Shown piece by piece: positions 1,411 to 55,564 of a stretch of DNA of 64,000 bases. The number at the start of each line of letters is the position of its first letter. Position 1 is the first letter of the stretch. The DNA is from Ilyobacter polytropus DSM 2926 (GTDB taxonomy: Bacteria > Fusobacteriota > Fusobacteriia > Fusobacteriales > Fusobacteriaceae): positions 682,001 to 746,000 of the forward strand of contig NC_014633.1 of assembly GCF_000165505.1 (NCBI RefSeq). Direction: 5' to 3'. The position numbers and the translations under genes were made by a program. A model generated the notes under the pieces. It was not told where the DNA came from. It made no database searches and saw only the letters and a list, made by a program, of their open reading frames with translations.

Positions 1411-2430
1411 TTACATAAGATCAGAATTAATGAATTTATCTAACCCAACTTCTTTATAATATTTTATCGCTCCTTTATGAAGAGGTGCAGATAACCCCTG
1501 TAACATGCTTTCTTTAGTTAAAACTGAATATGCAGGGTGAAGTTTTTTGAATTCTTCAAAATTTTCGAAAACTTCTTTAGTGATAGCATATACTATCTCT
1601 TCACTTTCTTCAGCAGATGTTACAAAAGTTGCCTTTACCCCTACTGAATCTATATCTTCTTCATTTACTGCGTTAGGATAATTTTTTGCCTCTATTTTAG
1701 CCTTTGCATAATAAGGCTTTTCTTTAATAAGTTCTTCTATTTCACTTCCAACTATAGGAACTATTTTAACTTTAACTCTTCCTGATGTAGCCTCTTTTAT
1801 AGCTCCACTAGGATGTCCTACTGTATAGAAAAATGCATCTATTCTTTCATCTTGAAGTAGCCCAGGTGCTTCCACAGCTTTTACATTTTCTGCTTTTATA
1901 TCATCTTCTGAGAACCCGAGCGTTCCAAGAACATCTAACGAGTTTTGTAGCTGACCAGATCCTACATTTCCGATATTAACTTTTTTACCTTTTAGATCCT
2001 TTGCTGAATTTATCCCTGCTTCTGATGATGCTACTAAAGTAATTGCTTCCGGGTGAATTGAAAATACTGATCTAAGATCACTCTGAGCTCCTCTTGATTC
2101 CCACTCAGCTTTACCAAAATATGCTTGATACTGTCTATCAGACTGAGCCACTCCAAAATCAAGGTCTCCTGCTAAAACTGCATTAATATTATATACAGAC
2201 CCTGCTGTAGATTCTACCGTCGCCTTGATATTGTAGTCTTCTTTTTTATTGATCATTTTACTTATTGCCCCGCCTGTAGGATAATAAACTCCAGTTACTC
2301 CACCTGTTCCTATGGTGACAAACTGTTTTTTATTGGTTGTTGCCGAGTCTGACTTTTCTGAACCACCACAGCCTACAAATCCAAGTGCCAAAATTAAAGA
2401 TACTGCTGTTCCTAATAAAAACTTTTTCAT
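1411..2430 (-). CDS. TAXI family TRAP transporter solute-binding lipoprotein
   Basis: Extracytoplasmic substrate-capture protein of the TRAP transporter encoded downstream. 339 residues from ATG 2430, which follows a strong GAGGGGGGA ribosome site; an earlier in-frame Met at 2472 lacks a site and sits before the signal peptide. The N-terminus is a lipoprotein signal (MKKFLLGTAV..., lipidated Cys about residue 21, then a Ser/Asp-rich linker). The body opens with I-G-T-G-G-V-T-G-V-Y-Y-P-T-G-G, the hallmark of the TAXI family, which often binds glutamate, glutamine or other dicarboxylates. The substrate cannot be read from sequence. Its transcript starts behind the attenuator RNA at 2599-2708, so expression is probably conditional at the RNA level. 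Confidence 0.92.
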   Translation of the reverse strand: MKKFLLGTAVSLILALGFVGCGGSEKSDSATTNKKQFVTIGTGGVTGVYYPTGGAISKMINKKEDYNIKATVESTAGSVYNINAVLAGDLDFGVAQSDRQYQAYFGKAEWESRGAQSDLRSVFSIHPEAITLVASSEAGINSAKDLKGKKVNIGNVGSGQLQNSLDVLGTLGFSEDDIKAENVKAVEAPGLLQDERIDAFFYTVGHPSGAIKEATSGRVKVKIVPIVGSEIEELIKEKPYYAKAKIEAKNYPNAVNEEDIDSVGVKATFVTSAEESEEIVYAITKEVFENFEEFKKLHPAYSVLTKESMLQGLSAPLHKGAIKYYKEVGLDKFINSDLM

Positions 2431-2598
2431 AAATTTCCCCCCTCTGATTTTATATTGGCATGCTATATACACACCATTTTATTTTTAAACTAAATTTGTT
2501 TAAAATTAAATTCACTTAAATATTTAATATTTTTACTCAGACAAATTATTTTTTAATTTCATTTTTATAAAATTTCATTCAGATATTTCAAATAAAAA

Positions 2599-2708
2599 AA
2601 GTCATAGTACTCCCATTTAAAAATAAAATGAAAGTAAAATGACTTTATATCTTTAAAGGGTAAAATAAAGCTGAACTTTATCTTTTCTTACAAAGATGCC
2701 TTTTACTT
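2599..2708 (-). promoter_or_regulatory. Candidate riboswitch/attenuator RNA, copy A (upstream of TAXI gene)
   Basis: Read on the minus strand, this is a conserved ~65-nt domain followed by an intrinsic terminator (stem bases 2599-2645, then a U-run). In the domain, segment ATCTTTG (2697-2691) pairs with TAAAGAT (2655-2649), and AAAGG pairs with CCTTT, in interlocked order. That is an H-type pseudoknot enclosing a hairpin with loop UUCAG (about 2663-2686). The same arrangement recurs at 53624-53733 and 53821-53930. The 5' segment AAGTAAAA can also pair with TTTTACTT in the terminator arm, a possible antiterminator. I recognise no known riboswitch class; ligand unknown. Confidence 0.72.
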
Positions 2709-30386: not shown

Positions 30387-30480
30387 TGGCGGAAATGTGT
30401 AGGAATCGAACCTACCGACGACTCACGCCGCCCACACGGTTTTGAAGACCGGGAAGAACACCAGTTGCTCATACACTTCC
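30387..30480 (-). tRNA. selC: tRNA-Sec (UCA anticodon)
   Basis: 94 nt including an encoded CCA (30389-30387). The acceptor strands GGAAGTGT and ACATTTCC make the 8 bp typical of Sec tRNA. The anticodon loop C-U-U-C-A-A-A reads UGA. A long variable arm (GGGCGGCGTGAGTCGTC) and a T-arm with GTTCGATTC follow. It is adjacent to selA/selB, which lie divergently upstream. Its 3' part is repeated at 25972-26029 and, decayed, at 22871-22931. Confidence 0.95.
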
Positions 30481-47498: not shown

Positions 47499-48650
47499 AT
47501 GATAGTCAAATTAAGGGAATTGTATGGTTCAGTTAAAGATCAAGAAATAAAGCTTATTGCCGGAAAAAAAGGCCTAGACAATATTGTAAGATGGGTACAT
47601 ATGGTCGAAAATATTGAAATATCTGTTTTTTTAGACGGTCAGGAGATTGCCTTTACCACAGGTATCGGTCTAGAAAAGAAAAGTGATCTGCTTGATCTGG
47701 TTAAACACGCTTACAATAACCGGTGTAGTGGTATGGTTATTAACATCGGTCCTTTTATCGATGAGATTTCAGATGAGATCATAGCCTTTGCCAACGAGCA
47801 TAATTTTCCTATTTTTGAAGTCCCATGGCATGTACATGTAGCCGAAATAATGCGTATCTTCTGCTATAACATAACAATATCTGATAGGATCAATACTGAA
47901 TTATCCGGTGCTTTCAAAAACTCCATCTTTTTCCAAAACCAAGAAGAATTGTATGTACCACAGCTCGAAAGGTACGACTTCAATGCCAATTGGTCATACT
48001 GCCTTGCTATTATGGAACCTGTAAACATGAATACTGATAAAAGATCTAAAATATTAAAAACTATTGAAAATACTGTAAGTTCTATAACCCAAAAATCCTT
48101 TGTTTTCGAATTAGAGGGTAAATTTGTCTTGGTCTTTGCAGAGTATACAGAGGAAGAAATAAGGGAAATCATTAAAATTACAAAGGATAAATGTTCACCT
48201 TTGTTGAAAGGCAACGAAGAGATTTATTGTGGAATAGGGAAGAGTACCAGAAATATCAAGTGTATTGCAAAAAGTTATAAAAGAGCATCAGATGTATTAA
48301 AACTTCAAAAGAGCAGCGATAATAATGATATAATTATATACCGTGAGTTAGGTTTGTATAAACTTCTCCTTTCCCTCGAGGATGAAGAGGTTGTACAGGA
48401 ATATTACCAGGAGACACTAGACCCCCTTGTAAAACACGACCAGTTAAATAACACAGATTATGTGGAAGTACTAGATACCTACCTCAAAAACAACGGAAGT
48501 CTCAAAGGAGTGGCTGCGGAACTTTTTTATCACCGAAACACAATTACATATAAATTAAATAAAATCCAAGAGATACTTTCTTGTGATCTGTCAGAGCTTA
48601 ATACAAAGCTTGCCTACAGTATCGCCCTTATGTTGAAAGAGATTATCTAA
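47499..48650 (+). CDS. PucR-family transcriptional regulator (copy 1)
   Basis: 383 residues. N-terminal PucR sensing domain (R-W-V-H-M-V-E-N, T-G-I-G-L, F-P-I-F-E-V-P-W), a central GGDEF-like CdaR region, and a C-terminal helix-turn-helix with F-Y-H-R-N-T-I-T-Y-K-L-N-K-I. These regulators control purine, GABA or amine catabolism. It flanks the permease-aminotransferase-dehydrogenase cluster, with a close paralogue at 54392 on the other side, so control of that cluster is likely (inference). GGAG precedes the ATG. Confidence 0.88.
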   Translation: MIVKLRELYGSVKDQEIKLIAGKKGLDNIVRWVHMVENIEISVFLDGQEIAFTTGIGLEKKSDLLDLVKHAYNNRCSGMVINIGPFIDEISDEIIAFANEHNFPIFEVPWHVHVAEIMRIFCYNITISDRINTELSGAFKNSIFFQNQEELYVPQLERYDFNANWSYCLAIMEPVNMNTDKRSKILKTIENTVSSITQKSFVFELEGKFVLVFAEYTEEEIREIIKITKDKCSPLLKGNEEIYCGIGKSTRNIKCIAKSYKRASDVLKLQKSSDNNDIIIYRELGLYKLLLSLEDEEVVQEYYQETLDPLVKHDQLNNTDYVEVLDTYLKNNGSLKGVAAELFYHRNTITYKLNKIQEILSCDLSELNTKLAYSIALMLKEII

Positions 48651-49543: not shown

Positions 49544-50662
49544 TTAATATAAATCTTTATATATAGTCATTATCTGTTTTTTTGATAAGTCTGCATAATT
49601 ATTTGATAAAAGTCTCTGTTGTTTTTCAATTACACTTTCAGTAAATTCTAAAATTTCTTTTTCTTCCATTCCAAAGAAATTAAGCTTTTTCTTTTCCCAT
49701 ATAGAATTAAAGAGTTGATCTAATGCTGCATAAACATCGGATTCTTTATCTAGTTCCAATGTTGAAATTACCAAGTCATTGAATTTTTTTATTTTACCCT
49801 CTGGAGCTATCTCAGTATAAGCTTTAAAAACCGGTGTAAAAAATTCATAGTTACACTCTCCATGTGCCACATGGTATTTTCCCCCAAGCGGATATGATAA
49901 GGCGTGTACCGGGCCTACACCTGTATTTCCAAAAGCTATTCCTGCATAATTACTCCCTATAAGGAAATCCTCTATGATTTCAGAATAACAGTCTTTCCCA
50001 TTTTCAGCTATTACCTTGTACCCCTTTAGGATAATCTCTATTGCATTTTGAGCAAAAATATCTGTATAGGGGTTTGACCCAGGTGAAACAAAGGACTCTG
50101 CCGCATGTACAAGGGCATCTAAAGTGCTGAATGCAAAGAACTTATAAGGAATATTTCGTAGAAGTTCAGGAATGAGAACTGCATAATCAGGTAGGAACTC
50201 TTCTATTCCTATACCCATTTTTGTCCCTTTTGATTTTATTTCTGCTACTGAATATGACGTGACCTCACTCCCTGTACCACAGGTTGTAGGGATGGCAATT
50301 AATTCTTTTATTTTATTGAACTCAATTTTTCTTTCAAACACATCTAGAGTTTCACTTACGTTTTCAATAACAAGGAATTTGGATATATCCATTACTGCTC
50401 CGCCTCCGATTGCGATCACCCTGTCAAAATCGTGTTGAGAAGCTTCTGCAAGTACTTTATCTATGATCTCATCTGATGGTTCTCCGTCTCCATATTTTTT
50501 GGGAGATATAAATATGCTTTTCAGATCAAGTTTTTTTATAAATTTGTTATAAATCGAGTTATTTACTACTATTAGATCTTTGTCACTGACACCGAATTCT
50601 AAAACAAACTCACTAAAGTTATCAAATTTATGAATTTCAGGTTGTAATTTAAATAATTTCAT
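49544..50662 (-). CDS. Iron-containing alcohol dehydrogenase
   Basis: 372 residues. NAD(P)-binding G-G-G-A-V-M-D-I-S-K, and the Fe-coordinating histidines in L-V-H-A-A-E-S-F and H-A-L-S-Y-P-L-G-G-K-Y-H-V-A-H-G. Group III alcohol dehydrogenases include succinate-semialdehyde reductase (4-hydroxybutyrate dehydrogenase). Following a GABA-type aminotransferase and a permease, that is an attractive role: it would reduce the aldehyde formed by transamination. Other aldehydes cannot be excluded. Confidence 0.82.
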   Translation of the reverse strand: MKLFKLQPEIHKFDNFSEFVLEFGVSDKDLIVVNNSIYNKFIKKLDLKSIFISPKKYGDGEPSDEIIDKVLAEASQHDFDRVIAIGGGAVMDISKFLVIENVSETLDVFERKIEFNKIKELIAIPTTCGTGSEVTSYSVAEIKSKGTKMGIGIEEFLPDYAVLIPELLRNIPYKFFAFSTLDALVHAAESFVSPGSNPYTDIFAQNAIEIILKGYKVIAENGKDCYSEIIEDFLIGSNYAGIAFGNTGVGPVHALSYPLGGKYHVAHGECNYEFFTPVFKAYTEIAPEGKIKKFNDLVISTLELDKESDVYAALDQLFNSIWEKKKLNFFGMEEKEILEFTESVIEKQQRLLSNNYADLSKKQIMTIYKDLY

Positions 50663-50776: not shown

Positions 50777-52120
50777 TTAACTTAAAGCTTTTTCAAGTGA
50801 TTTCTCAAGAACATCCAGACCATATTCCAACTGCTCATCAGTCATTACCAAAGGTGGAAGGAATCTGAGGACGTTCCCATAAATTCCTGCACTTATGAAT
50901 ATTACTCCCTCTTGAAGGCTTTCTTTTGTTATTTTCCCTATAATTTCCTTATTAGGTTCTTTTGATTCAGGATCTGTTATGAACTCCACAGCACACATTG
51001 CTCCAAGCCCTCTTATATCACCGATAACAGGATATTTTTTTTGCATTTCAGAAAGTCTTGATTTAATCTTTTCACCGATAGCATTAGCTCTTTCTGTTAA
51101 TTTTTCTTTTTCTATTTTTTCAAGGACTTTGATAGCAGCAGCACAGGCAACAGGGTTACCGCTAAAAGTCCCACCTATAGATCCCACAATTGGATTTTCC
51201 ATTATTTCCTCTTTTCCGACTACTGCGGCTAAAGGCATTCCGGCAGCTAGTGATTTGGACATTGTCATCATATCAGGCTCTATATCAAACTGCTCAGATG
51301 CAAAGAGAGTACCTGTTCTGGCAAAACCTGCCTGTATTTCGTCAACTATGAAAAGAATATTATTATCATTGCATATCTTTTGAAGTCTTTGTAAATATCC
51401 CTTTGGAGGCACTATGAATCCCCCTTCACCCTGGACAGGTTCCACTACTAAAGCGGCTATCATATCAGCCGAAAGTTCACCTTTAAGCAAGTCTTCTAAT
51501 TTTTGAGCACACTCTAAATTGCAACCAGGATGTTTTTTTCCAAATTGACATCTGTAACAATAAGGTGACGGAATTTTATGTGTGTCACTGTTATATGGCG
51601 CAAACCCATATTTATAAGGCTTTACCTTACTTGTAAGTGTCATAGACATATAAGTTCTTCCGTGGAAGGCGTTTTCCAAGGATAAAATCATCGGTTTACC
51701 AGTATATTTTCTTGCAATTTTAACTGCATTTTCTACAGCCTCGGTACCACTGTTTATAAGTAAAGCTTTTTTATCGTAATCCCCAGGAGTCGCTGCAACC
51801 AGTTTTTCGGCTAAATTAATATAGGGTTCATACATGGCAACATTAAAAGATGTGTGTATATTTTTTTCAACCTGTGATTTTATTGTTTCTACTATTTCCT
51901 CGTCACAGTGTCCGACATTTTGTACCCCTATACCTGCTGCAAAATCAACAAATACATTGCCGTCAATATCCTTTATAAGAGCACCTTTGGCCTCATCTAC
52001 AAATACCTCTGTAGAATAACTGACACCTCTAGCAACATATTTGAGTCTTTTTTCCAAAAGTTCCTTAGACTTTGGACCTGGAATTGCCGTTGTAATTTTT
52101 GCATTTTTTTCTAAAATCAT
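50777..52120 (-). CDS. gabT: Class III aminotransferase, 4-aminobutyrate aminotransferase-like
   Basis: 447 residues. PLP motifs N-S-G-T-E-A-V-E-N-A, F-H-G-R-T-Y-M-S-M, F-I-V-D-E-I-Q-A-G-F-A-R-T-G and the lysine in T-M-S-K-S-L-A-A-G-M-P. A cysteine-bearing P-Y-C-Y-R-C-Q-F-G insert occurs in many GabT proteins. Predicted to transaminate GABA or another omega-amino acid. ATG 52120 follows GGAGGT; the in-frame ATG at 52135 does not. It lies between the APC permease and alcohol dehydrogenase genes, same strand. Confidence 0.83.
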   Translation of the reverse strand: MILEKNAKITTAIPGPKSKELLEKRLKYVARGVSYSTEVFVDEAKGALIKDIDGNVFVDFAAGIGVQNVGHCDEEIVETIKSQVEKNIHTSFNVAMYEPYINLAEKLVAATPGDYDKKALLINSGTEAVENAVKIARKYTGKPMILSLENAFHGRTYMSMTLTSKVKPYKYGFAPYNSDTHKIPSPYCYRCQFGKKHPGCNLECAQKLEDLLKGELSADMIAALVVEPVQGEGGFIVPPKGYLQRLQKICNDNNILFIVDEIQAGFARTGTLFASEQFDIEPDMMTMSKSLAAGMPLAAVVGKEEIMENPIVGSIGGTFSGNPVACAAAIKVLEKIEKEKLTERANAIGEKIKSRLSEMQKKYPVIGDIRGLGAMCAVEFITDPESKEPNKEIIGKITKESLQEGVIFISAGIYGNVLRFLPPLVMTDEQLEYGLDVLEKSLEKALS

Positions 52121-52204
52121 GATTGGTACCTCCAATATATGTTTAAATTTTTATATCCTATAGTTTTTCTTTTTATTTTAAAGAATAAACGCTTTATTCT
52201 CCAT

Positions 52205-53599
52205 TTATCCTAGAGCCTCTTCCTCTGCATGCTTTCCGAATTCAACATATGACATTTTTGACCATGTATAAAATACAGCACCTAGAACAAACCACCCAGT
52301 TACAATAGCCCATTCATAAGACACAAGTGCAGAAGGAGCTCCCGGAAGATAAAGGAATATACATAATCCGCTCAATAGAACAGCTATTGAACCTACTAAA
52401 ACACCTTTTCTAACCTTGTAAGGTCTAGGCATATCAGGCTCTTTATATCTTAGGACTATAAATGATATTGATACTATAAGGTAAGATATCACTATGGTAA
52501 ATCCGCCTGCATCAACAAGCCAAACAAGCATTTTTCTCCCTAAAAGAGGAGCCAGTGTGGATAATATACCGATTAAAAGTACAGCATTTACAGGTGTTTT
52601 GTATTTTGGATGCAGTTTCCCTAGGAATTCAGGAAGCATTTTTGAATCAGCCATAGAGTATATAGCTCTGCTTCCGCCTACAAAGAATGAGTTCCAGCTT
52701 GTTATTATTCCTCCGATTCCGGCTATAACCATTATCTTAGATGCTAATGGACTGTCAAAGAATACAGCTTTCATTGCATCGGCAGTTGCAAGCTTAGAAG
52801 CTGCTAGCGCACTGCTGTCCATAGCAAGGGATACTCCATAAATTATCATTACATACCATATAACAGCCATAACAACTGAAAGTACTAATATTTGACCGAT
52901 CTTTTTAAATGGAAGATTTATCTCTTCTGCAGCCTGAGGGATAACATCAAATCCTACATACATAAAAGGTGTCATAACAGCTACTGCAAGAACCCCTTTG
53001 TTTCCGTCGCTGAAAAGTGTCGTGATATTGGCAGAATCACCGTTGACAACTGCTCCCCCGAAAAAGCTCAAGCCTACCGCCCCTATAATAAGAGTAAGTA
53101 CACCTTGCAAAAATGCAGCAGGTTTAACTCCGAAATAATTAATAACTGTTATTGCAATAGAGCTTATCATACCCACAAGTACCCAGGTAAAGTAAACGTC
53201 ATACCCTGCTACCGTATACATCTTTCCTTGTATATAGCCAGGCACCAGATATTCCAAAACAGTGGGAAAAGCCACAGCCTCAAAAGCCACTACTGACACA
53301 TATCCCAATATGATTGCCCATGTACATATAAAAGAAGCATTTGTTCCCAAAGCTCTCAGACTAAATACGTGTTCACCTCCGCATTTAGGCATAGCAGAAG
53401 TTAGCTCTGCATAAGTTAGTCCTACAAATAAAACCATAATTCCACCCATTATAAAGGCTATTATTGCTCCTAGGGTACCGGCAGTTTCTATCCAGCTACC
53501 TGCCATAACTACCCATCCCCAACCTATCATCGCACCAAAGGCAAGAGCCAATACATCTTTTTTTGATAATACCCTGTCAAAAGATTCCTGTTTCGTCAT
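52205..53599 (-). CDS. APC-superfamily amino acid permease
   Basis: 464 residues, about 12 hydrophobic segments. The first contains G-A-M-I-G-W-G-W-V-V-M-A-G-S-W, the substrate-binding helix-1 break of the APC fold. Y-A-E-L-T-S-A-M-P-K-C-G-G-E is the conserved cytoplasmic loop. It likely imports the amine or amino acid handled by the adjacent aminotransferase. It is the first gene behind two tandem copies of the attenuator RNA and has GGGGG before its ATG. Confidence 0.87.
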   Translation of the reverse strand: MTKQESFDRVLSKKDVLALAFGAMIGWGWVVMAGSWIETAGTLGAIIAFIMGGIMVLFVGLTYAELTSAMPKCGGEHVFSLRALGTNASFICTWAIILGYVSVVAFEAVAFPTVLEYLVPGYIQGKMYTVAGYDVYFTWVLVGMISSIAITVINYFGVKPAAFLQGVLTLIIGAVGLSFFGGAVVNGDSANITTLFSDGNKGVLAVAVMTPFMYVGFDVIPQAAEEINLPFKKIGQILVLSVVMAVIWYVMIIYGVSLAMDSSALAASKLATADAMKAVFFDSPLASKIMVIAGIGGIITSWNSFFVGGSRAIYSMADSKMLPEFLGKLHPKYKTPVNAVLLIGILSTLAPLLGRKMLVWLVDAGGFTIVISYLIVSISFIVLRYKEPDMPRPYKVRKGVLVGSIAVLLSGLCIFLYLPGAPSALVSYEWAIVTGWFVLGAVFYTWSKMSYVEFGKHAEEEALG

Positions 53600-53623
53600 A
53601 TTTTTACCCCCTTATTTAATAAA

Positions 53624-53733
53624 AAGTTATACTACCCATATTTGATAATTAAATAAAAGTAACATGACTTTATATCTTTGAAGGGTAAAATAAAGCTGAA
53701 CCTTATTTTTTCTTACAAAGACGCCCTTTACTC
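53624..53733 (-). promoter_or_regulatory. Candidate riboswitch/attenuator RNA, copy C (gene-proximal)
   Basis: Same fold as copies A and B, immediately before the permease. The pseudoknot helices are GTCTTTG/CAAAGAT (53722-53716 with 53680-53674) and AAGGG/CCCTT (53728-53724 with 53685-53681), around the UUCAG-loop hairpin. The terminator stem (53624-53670) is weaker than in copies A/B, with two mismatches, but keeps a U-run. The A-to-G change in the outer helix keeps pairing as G-U. Confidence 0.72.
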
Positions 53734-53820
53734 AATGAAAATTTTTCTGTTTTAATTTAACTTTGTAGTGGGATAGTTACGCTGTTAGAAAATACATTAT
53801 TTAGAACAATTAAAATAAAA

Positions 53821-53930
53821 AAGTCATACTACTCCCATTTAAAGATCAAATGAAAGTAACATGACTTTATATCTTTGAAGGGTAAAATAAAGCTGAACCT
53901 TATTTTTTCTTACAAAGATGCCCTTTACTT
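53821..53930 (-). promoter_or_regulatory. Candidate riboswitch/attenuator RNA, copy B (gene-distal)
   Basis: On the minus strand, pseudoknot segments AAGGG (53925-53921) with CCCTT (53882-53878) interlock with ATCTTTG (53919-53913) and CAAAGAT (53877-53871). A 9-bp hairpin with loop UUCAG (53884-53906) lies inside. A strong terminator follows: AAGTCAT..ATGACTT with inner 10-bp ACTTTCATTT/AAATGGGAGT (53821-53867), then U-run. A TATAAT at 53961-53956 lies about 25 bp upstream, so the domain is the very 5' end of the transcript. Two complete units in series precede the permease. Confidence 0.75.
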
Positions 53931-54391
53931 AATGAAAATCATTCTATTTAATGTCATTATATAGCCAGGTTTATATCTTTTCAGGGCATAAAAGAAAATC
54001 TCTTTTTTCTGATAAGATTTAACCTGCTTTTTATTATCCGTAAAAAGTCCAGTGAGAGATTTTTATTTTCTCTTGGTGAGAAATTTTTTAATCAGCTCTC
54101 AAATTTGCTATAATTAATTGTAATTTTTTTTTAAATGAATTACAATGGATTACTATCCGAAAAATTTTGTGCTGGAGTTGAAAATAATATTTCTAAACCT
54201 TTTAATTTCACGACTAATATAGACTTATATGGAAAATCCATTGTGGTAAAAACACTTGGGTTCAGTTTTGTATTTTAATATCGTTGTAGAAAAAATTGAC
54301 AAATGAATTATATAGAGATAATATTATTAATCAATGTAATTTTAGATTCTATCAAAGTGAAATATCAAATTATAGGTAGTGAGGTAAAAAA
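53931..54391. other. Intergenic region between permease leader and PucR-2
   Basis: About 460 AT-rich bases. Contains a TATAAT (minus, 53956-53961) for the permease transcript; the PucR-2 promoter must lie near its right end. No gene seen. Confidence 0.45.
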
Positions 54392-55564
54392 ATGGCTATG
54401 ACATTAAGAGAATTATATGAATCTACCAATAAAAGAGATATAAAATTAATCGCTGGTAAAAACGGTTTAGACAATGTGGTAAGATGGGCACATATGATTG
54501 AGGGCAAAGAGATATCAACTTACTTGGAAGGACAAGAACTTTCTTTTGTTACTGGTATCGCTTTGGGCAAGGACGAAAGTTTATTTGAACTAGTTAAGCA
54601 TACTTATTATAATCAAGCTAGTGGTATGGTTATAAATATAGGACCTTATATCGAAGGTATCTCAGAAGAAATTTTACAGTTTTGTGACGAGAACGACTTT
54701 CCTCTCTTCCAAATTCCATGGCATATTTACATGGCTAATTTCATAAAAGATTTTTGTTATCAGATTACAATATCAGACAGGATTAATATAGAGTTACTGT
54801 CTGCAATTAAAAATGCTATATTTTTCCCTGATCAAGAAAATTTATATAAACCTCAATTGGAAATACACAATTTTAGTGCCAACTGGCCATACTGTATTGC
54901 AATTATAGAGATCTTGGAAAACTCTACCGGTGAAATAATTGGTGATGAAAAGAGAGCTAAGTTATTAAAAAATATAGAAAATATCCTTATCTACTCTTAT
55001 AAGAGAACCTTTATATTTGAATTAAAAGGCAGATTTGTTTTGGTATTTGCTGAATATAGTGAAGATGAGATAAGAAATATTGTTCACGAAATAAAAAGAA
55101 AGTGCAGGGAAATTTTAAAGAAGAAAAATAAAATGTATTTTTGTATCGGAGAAACTTCTAAAAATATTGACGATATTTCAAAAAGCTACCACCAGGCAAT
55201 AAGTATATTAAAACTGCAAAAGAAAAGAGAAAATAGTGATGAAATTACTGCCTATAGTGAACTAGGCCTATATAAATTACTTTTATCTATGGAAAACAAA
55301 GAGGCTATGAGTAATTACTACCAAGAAACCTTAGAACCTTTAGCCGAATATGATAAAATTAATGGAACAGACTATATGATAGTATTAGATACTTATTTAA
55401 AAAATAATTGCAGCGTTAAAGAGGTCGCTGCACAACTCTTCTATCATAGAAATTCAATTAATTATAAATTATCAAAAATACAGGAGATCCTATCTTGTGA
55501 TCTGTCTCAGCTTAACACAAGACTTGTTTATAGTATAGCCTTGATGCTTCGAGAAATTATATAA
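54392..55564 (+). CDS. PucR-family transcriptional regulator (copy 2)
   Basis: 390 residues, collinear with the protein at 47499 and highly similar throughout (K-L-I-A-G-K, R-W-A-H-M-I-E, F-P-L-F-Q-I-P-W-H, and Y-H-R-N-S-I-N-Y-K-L-S-K-I at the C-terminal helix-turn-helix). It is divergent from the permease operon, the classic position for its activator. GTGAGG is a modest ribosome site. The two copies suggest duplication around the cluster with separate inducers, or shared control. Confidence 0.88.
   Translation: MAMTLRELYESTNKRDIKLIAGKNGLDNVVRWAHMIEGKEISTYLEGQELSFVTGIALGKDESLFELVKHTYYNQASGMVINIGPYIEGISEEILQFCDENDFPLFQIPWHIYMANFIKDFCYQITISDRINIELLSAIKNAIFFPDQENLYKPQLEIHNFSANWPYCIAIIEILENSTGEIIGDEKRAKLLKNIENILIYSYKRTFIFELKGRFVLVFAEYSEDEIRNIVHEIKRKCREILKKKNKMYFCIGETSKNIDDISKSYHQAISILKLQKKRENSDEITAYSELGLYKLLLSMENKEAMSNYYQETLEPLAEYDKINGTDYMIVLDTYLKNNCSVKEVAAQLFYHRNSINYKLSKIQEILSCDLSQLNTRLVYSIALMLREII

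Follow-up and report, generated by a model that had tools for sequence, protein, structure and literature searches.

Tandem RNA units before an amino acid permease gene of Ilyobacter polytropus belong to a candidate genus-specific family of nitrogen-regulon antiterminators

Two RNA units in series before an amino acid permease gene

The leader of an amino acid permease gene in Ilyobacter polytropus contains two similar, structured RNA units, which raises the question of what these units are and which signal they might convey. In the window, by which we mean the whole 64,000-nt stretch of DNA that was analysed, an APC-family permease (52205-53599, minus strand; PF13520, E 1.4e-37; TIGR00909 under cut-off) is the first gene of an operon that continues with a 4-aminobutyrate transaminase (50777-52135, minus strand; TIGR00700, 551.5 bits against a cut-off of 506.65) and, in the same direction, an ORF that by sequence appearance is a putative iron-type alcohol dehydrogenase (49544-50662, minus strand). 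A preliminary description of this locus had reported tandem units before the permease. These are real, and consist of two direct copies of 132 nt each on the minus strand (copy 1, 53818-53949; copy 2, 53621-53752), which are 89% identical and have a spacing of 197 nt. Relative to dinucleotide shuffles, the 361-nt permease leader folds 4.95 SD better (z -4.95), against 2.84 SD for the opposite strand.

In copy 1, a covariance model of the family (R2) delimited an antiterminator hairpin at 53852-53930 (minus strand; 88.4 bits, E 1e-17). Its outer stem, P1, pairs AAGUAA (53930-53925) with UUACUU (53859-53854), and is followed by P1b (GGC, 53922-53920, with GUC, 53865-53863), P2 (5' strand 53919-53913, 3' strand at about 53880-53871) and a P3 hairpin (about 53906-53884). 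The unconstrained minimum free energy (MFE) structure of this copy is exactly the nested P1–P1b–P2–P3 fold (-16.8 kcal/mol, z -2.9), and the inner hairpin with the loop UUCAG was found as previously reported. The 5' arm of an intrinsic terminator (53816-53867, minus strand), which has a 20-bp stem of -22.3 kcal/mol and a U tract, includes the 3' strand of P1/P1b; a consensus terminator scan gave three overlapping matches here against 0.3 expected. Copy 2 (53655-53733, minus strand; R2 83.5 bits; MFE -17.5 kcal/mol) folds like copy 1, with a P1 made of GAGUAA (53733-53728) and UUACUU (53662-53657). Although each unit had been credited with its own terminator, that of copy 2 is only a weak terminator-like hairpin (53621-53670, minus strand; stem -8.6 kcal/mol followed by U5) that was missed by the consensus scan and stops 22 nt 5' of the permease start codon. 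The differences between the copies do keep pairing, as had been proposed, in that A-U pairs of P1 and P2 become G-U pairs, but these changes are one-sided.

A further P2-P3-like hairpin lies upstream of copy 1 (53970-54018, minus strand; R2 26.4 bits, E 0.0023 in the window; z -2.9). It has neither P1 nor terminator and may be a degenerate or accessory copy. Since a TATAAT-like -10 element (53961-53956) sits between this hairpin and copy 1, the hairpin is perhaps untranscribed. Four such hairpins, all lacking P1 and terminator and with a conserved GCCCU or ACCCU bulge, occur roughly 40-180 nt upstream of the window, M20, NhaC-family and xanthine dehydrogenase (XDH) loci, and equivalents are present at L007 and L008 and at counterparts in two other genomes of the genus (G042 and G043).

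Two mutually similar ORFs, PucR-family-like by appearance, flank the permease/GABA operon (47499-48650 and 54392-55564, both plus strand), and in G042 two such PucR-like regulator genes enclose a relative of the RNA element (L154). Elsewhere in the window we noticed a selenocysteine tRNA (30391-30480, minus strand; RF01852, 64.4 bits), so the replicon has part of a selenocysteine system.

A nested hairpin that shares a strand with the terminator

Further copies were collected by blastn against the window's own genome and then with three covariance models, R1 (built from 8 copies), R2 (36 copies) and R3 (53 copies). We found 18 P1-bearing copies at 17 loci in this genome, with R3 scores of 51-86 bits. 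One of them is a third copy within the window, whose antiterminator hairpin (2630-2708, minus strand; R2 88.6 bits, E 1.1e-17; MFE -17.9 kcal/mol, z -4.0) is followed by a terminator recognised in the sequence (2594-2645, minus strand; stem -18.8 kcal/mol followed by T7) and by the gene for a TAXI-family TRAP transporter solute-binding protein (1411-2472, minus strand, corresponding to L015:7412-8473; TIGR02122, 330 bits against a cut-off of 84).

All copies share one long interrupted hairpin in which P1 (RAGURA/UUACUU), a small internal loop, P1b (G-R-Y/R-Y-C), P2, an asymmetric internal loop and P3 follow each other, and nearly every copy gives a near-identical nested hairpin when folded singly and unconstrained. 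We aligned 51 distinct homologous sequences, a few of them partial upstream hairpins. In this alignment, which was fitted to a model of the same structure, standard pairs filled 90.0% of pair cells, against 39-55% with the partners slid. Cells with a double change numbered 134, against 42.6 +/- 5.6 in shuffled and 26-40 in slid controls, and 19 of the 27 pairs showed changes on both sides. A plain MAFFT alignment, not fitted to the model, still gave 58 double-change cells against 20.4 +/- 3.7 in shuffled controls. The shuffled controls leave relatedness in; the slid controls remove it, and the two agree. Together, these results strongly support the interrupted hairpin by covariation, and bear out the earlier view of the units as a structured cis-regulatory RNA. 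P1 itself, which pairs in 95-98% of cells, hardly varies, so that its support comes from complementarity and not from covariation.

The preliminary description had envisaged interlocked helices, that is, a pseudoknot. However, among 47 distinct full copies a GGG/CCC pseudoknot between the 5' G-R and the C-C of the P2/P3 loop would be paired in 71-77% of cells. P1b, in which that 5' G-R-Y has its partner R-Y-C at the base of the terminator arm, is paired in 99.3%. We therefore prefer the nested structure and have abandoned the pseudoknot, which, to judge from the glnK and BMP copies with their ability to pair GA with UC, could be a minor alternative conformation.

One segment, GUC..UUACUU, serves both as the 3' strand of P1b plus P1 and as the terminator's 5' arm. 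P1 thus excludes the terminator and vice versa, P2-P3 is compatible with either, and because of the shared strand we regard the RNA as an antiterminator. The folds, the covariation of P1b, P2 and P3, and the terminator scan together describe a transcription attenuation leader, with an antiterminator and an intrinsic terminator competing for one strand. As expected of a strand with two partners, the segment UUACUUU is near-invariant and its 3' partner in the terminator varies between A-U and G-U pairs.

Predicted energies were about -18.5 kcal/mol for the antiterminated and about -35.7 kcal/mol for the terminated state of copy 1, and -19.6 and -22.3 kcal/mol, about 3 apart, for copy 2. In every copy whose terminator segment had been delimited correctly, the terminator fold was favoured, usually by 8-17 kcal/mol, although these two-state energies rest on an approximate split and are unreliable for glnK, where the T run was set too early, and probably for AspT (1 kcal/mol). 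The folding model thus predicts that the default state is off, the terminator being more stable when no factor is bound, and if so, something must stabilise P1. Two antiterminators lie in the permease leader; a steeper response is known for tandem switches that each have a terminator of their own (PMC9481103). As its terminator is weak, copy 2 may perhaps serve for fine-tuning only.

A putative nitrogen regulon, found in one genus

The element is in sense orientation to the gene that follows it at all 17 loci. It precedes nifH and the nif operon (nifH, 448.9 bits against a cut-off of 394); a locus after a nifV-like gene that includes a ModA-like binding protein; the PII-ammonium transporter-PII genes (glnK-amtB, in 3/3 genomes of the genus); the FAD subunit of xanthine dehydrogenase; the xanthine permease pbuX; a BMP-type ABC transporter with a deaminase; a branched-chain/urea-type ABC transporter (liv); a C-N hydrolase followed by a TRAP transporter; the TAXI TRAP transporter; an M20 amidohydrolase; an NhaC/ArcD-type antiporter with an aminotransferase; an APC permease with an apparent ornithine cyclodeaminase; two Nramp-fold transporters, one adjoining 5-oxoprolinase-like genes; and the window's own APC permease with GABA transaminase. 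Two further targets are carbon-related, namely fumarase/malic-type genes, and an AspT-type antiporter with a succinate CoA-transferase and an apparent methylmalonyl-CoA mutase. The copies at the fumarase and AspT loci are diverged (L144 and L145 in the window's own genome; also L146, L148, L150 and L153), and an FMN riboswitch (L145:640-758; RF00050, 114 bits) precedes the fumarase copy by a few kb. In G043, one copy (L074, G043:C3:282000-293000) stands before an apparent transporter and then glutamate mutase/cobalamin-mutase-like genes, so named by appearance, an arrangement not seen in the window's genome.

The ligand had been sought among the amines or amino acids handled by the permease and its operon. 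That the same element stands before nifH, glnK-amtB, the modA locus, xdh, pbuX, liv and TRAP transporters argues against a ligand tied to this permease and points to general nitrogen status as the signal. Judging from gene content, the common thread of this regulon of about 17 loci appears to be nitrogen acquisition, with purine/guanine use and amino-acid/amide uptake among its parts, and not the permease's own substrate, and the carbon genes within it are possibly a clue to the signal. We also considered control specific to molybdenum or its cofactor, as nif, mod and xdh might suggest, and rejected it since most of the loci are not connected with Mo and Rfam scans showed no known riboswitch at the copies.

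The covariance-model search of Fusobacteriota that had been proposed as a check returned homologues, with covariation, in three genomes of one genus (G000, G042 and G043; 3/3 genomes of that genus). Convincing matches numbered zero in the other 95 of 98 Fusobacteriota genomes, and zero in the other 386 of 389 genomes from 292 genera. The weakest full copies in the genus scored about 48 bits, and the best matches elsewhere 27-34 bits; weak matches in G002, G030 and G096 were dismissed as chance by their genomic context. When 84,980 species were scanned with a strict pattern, only three matches appeared, in unrelated phyla, against a chance estimate of about 3, and searches of plasmids for the element gave no match; the larger searches used stricter filters, through which remote relatives could be missed. 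One sequence from another genus of the same family (G056:C57, L090:1099-1179; R1 E 0.026) has AAGUAA ... UUUACUU and a terminator and no P2/P3, and is perhaps a distant or convergent relative. Specificity to one genus is the best reading of these searches.

Position and orientation also bear on whether the units regulate anything. Copies 1 and 2 are similar enough (89% identity) to imply a recent duplication, which would suit a pair of terminators without regulation, or dispersed repeats (mobile or duplicated) in decay. However, the sense orientation before operons at 17/17 loci, the compensatory changes across strongly diverged copies, and the retention of the element in three genomes at orthologous nifH, mod, glnK, NhaC-family and liv loci make such a non-regulatory origin very improbable, and we rejected a dispersed mobile repeat on the grounds of orientation and covariation. 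Attenuation coupled to a ribosome on a leader peptide would make use of the AUG within RAGUAAAUGR, and many copies do carry an AUG there, together with short open frames. Yet the permease, mod, XDH, NhaC and window TRAP copies have no AUG, the frames vary from locus to locus, as do their lengths, and neither a ribosome-binding site nor a repeated regulatory codon is visible in the sequence; with AUG and frame not conserved, we rejected this mechanism, to which we would grant hardly any chance.

Proposed mechanism, putative trans factor and relation to known systems

We propose, with a probability of roughly 0.8, that the units are genus-specific, cis-acting transcription antiterminators that control a nitrogen regulon and are switched on under nitrogen shortage via a trans factor; the direction of the response, regulation in vivo and the factor are what we infer. 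Each RNA would form either the long interrupted hairpin or the intrinsic terminator, which takes the 3' strand of P1/P1b as its 5' arm. With no factor bound, the more stable terminator would keep the genes off. Under nitrogen shortage, a putative trans factor, either a small molecule or a protein, would stabilise the P1-P1b stem and block the terminator, allowing read-through. In the permease leader, both switches would have to be passed in series, giving tighter or steeper control. Against this proposal stand the two of 17 loci with carbon rather than nitrogen genes and the weak terminator of copy 2. By sequence reading, the promoters next to the nifH, glnK, YcsG and C-N hydrolase copies are sigma70-like (TTGACA-17-TATAAT); two generic NtrC-type sigma54 activators are present in the genome.

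As the factor, an RNA-binding protein seems to us slightly more likely than a small molecule, for example glutamine or 2-oxoglutarate. At about even odds, a putative protein made or activated under nitrogen limitation would bind the P1-IL1-P1b stem and block the terminator, in a LicT/RAT- or ANTAR-like but unrelated manner. This is suggested by where conservation lies: conserved positions cluster in the P1-loop-P1b stem (RAGURAAUGRY // RYCGNNUUACUUUC), with near-invariant RAGURAAUGR and YCG-N-N-UUACUUUC around the duplex, and the distal parts drift. The restriction to one genus likewise fits a co-evolving protein, although the ANTAR and CAT_RBD proteins that were searched for are absent. The same absence would suit a true riboswitch, to which we assign somewhat less than even odds, and in which the hairpin would bind 2-oxoglutarate, glutamine, ammonium or a similar metabolite of nitrogen status, stabilising P1 and turning the genes on; a ligand that signals repletion would instead favour the terminator. 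The regulon-wide distribution, the internal loop IL1 (A7 U8 / G78, about 82% conserved), and the tandem full switches with extra upstream hairpins, which resemble tandem riboswitches (PMC9481103), argue for metabolite binding. However, conservation in the P1/P1b duplex with P2/P3 loops that are unpaired and poorly conserved between loci would be unusual for a metabolite pocket, as a one-genus range would be for a riboswitch class. More tentative still is a new riboswitch class that directly senses nitrogen status, with about 18 copies per genome, as the global regulator of a diazotroph's nitrogenase, ammonium transport, molybdate uptake and organic-nitrogen scavenging. A protein-bound antiterminator fits the conservation pattern at least as well as a riboswitch.

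Several known systems resemble the antiterminator proposed here. ANTAR leaders of the EutV/NasR/AmiR type set antiterminator hairpins against an intrinsic terminator upstream of nitrogen or amine utilisation operons. Both features recur here, but paired small hexaloop hairpins having A1 and G4 in the loop are missing from the present element. ANTAR-dependent antitermination was rejected because the domain gave no match in G000, G042 and G043; 37 of 98 Fusobacteriota had one above cut-off, which shows that the search is able to find it. The RAT hairpins of LicT/SacY/BglG systems are likewise single interrupted hairpins whose 3' strand overlaps the terminator, but the present element is longer (about 78 nt), differs in sequence and is not found at sugar-PTS genes. 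BglG/LicT-type antitermination was also rejected, no CAT_RBD protein having been found in the six genomes searched (0/6), with four named control genomes positive.

The preliminary description had matched the fold to no known class, and in our hands Rfam 15, including the described riboswitch classes and T-box, likewise gave no cis-regulatory match at the gathering threshold for the window copies and nine further loci; a search of the window copies at a permissive E-value returned only miRNA-precursor models, far below cut-off. A literature search found no description of this element, which thus appears to match no described family among those tested, the trpB motif being compared by description only. 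Glutamine riboswitches (glnA RNA and the glutamine-II/downstream-peptide RNA) sense nitrogen status, control nitrogen genes and are often tandem (PMC9481103), as may be the case here, but Rfam recognises none in our element; the pseudoknot on which glutamine-II centres (PMC6698751) has no supported counterpart. The trpB motif, a riboswitch candidate of Firmicutes and Fusobacteria with over 900 representatives near amino-acid transporter genes, is outlined as two hairpins, the second a terminator, with an antiterminator in the right shoulder of P1 (PMC11109978). Its logic is similar, but our element is found in one genus only, a comparison made against that text description. The same source lists the nifV motif from four Geobacter representatives, a candidate RNA also at nitrogenase genes whose structure includes the Shine-Dalgarno sequence, but for which it describes no terminator switch (PMC11109978).

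The family provides a defined, easily assayed RNA with a list of target operons, so that the ligand or protein can be sought directly. Nitrogen fixation and assimilation are usually under DNA-binding regulators (NtrC/NifA, GlnR, NtcA), and to our knowledge nitrogen control in this phylum has been little studied. In the present case, a single RNA element apparently switches an entire nitrogen regulon, nifH and glnK-amtB among its members, at a step after initiation. Should this element bind a metabolite, it would be a riboswitch for global nitrogen status; should it bind a protein, it would represent a new antiterminator family.
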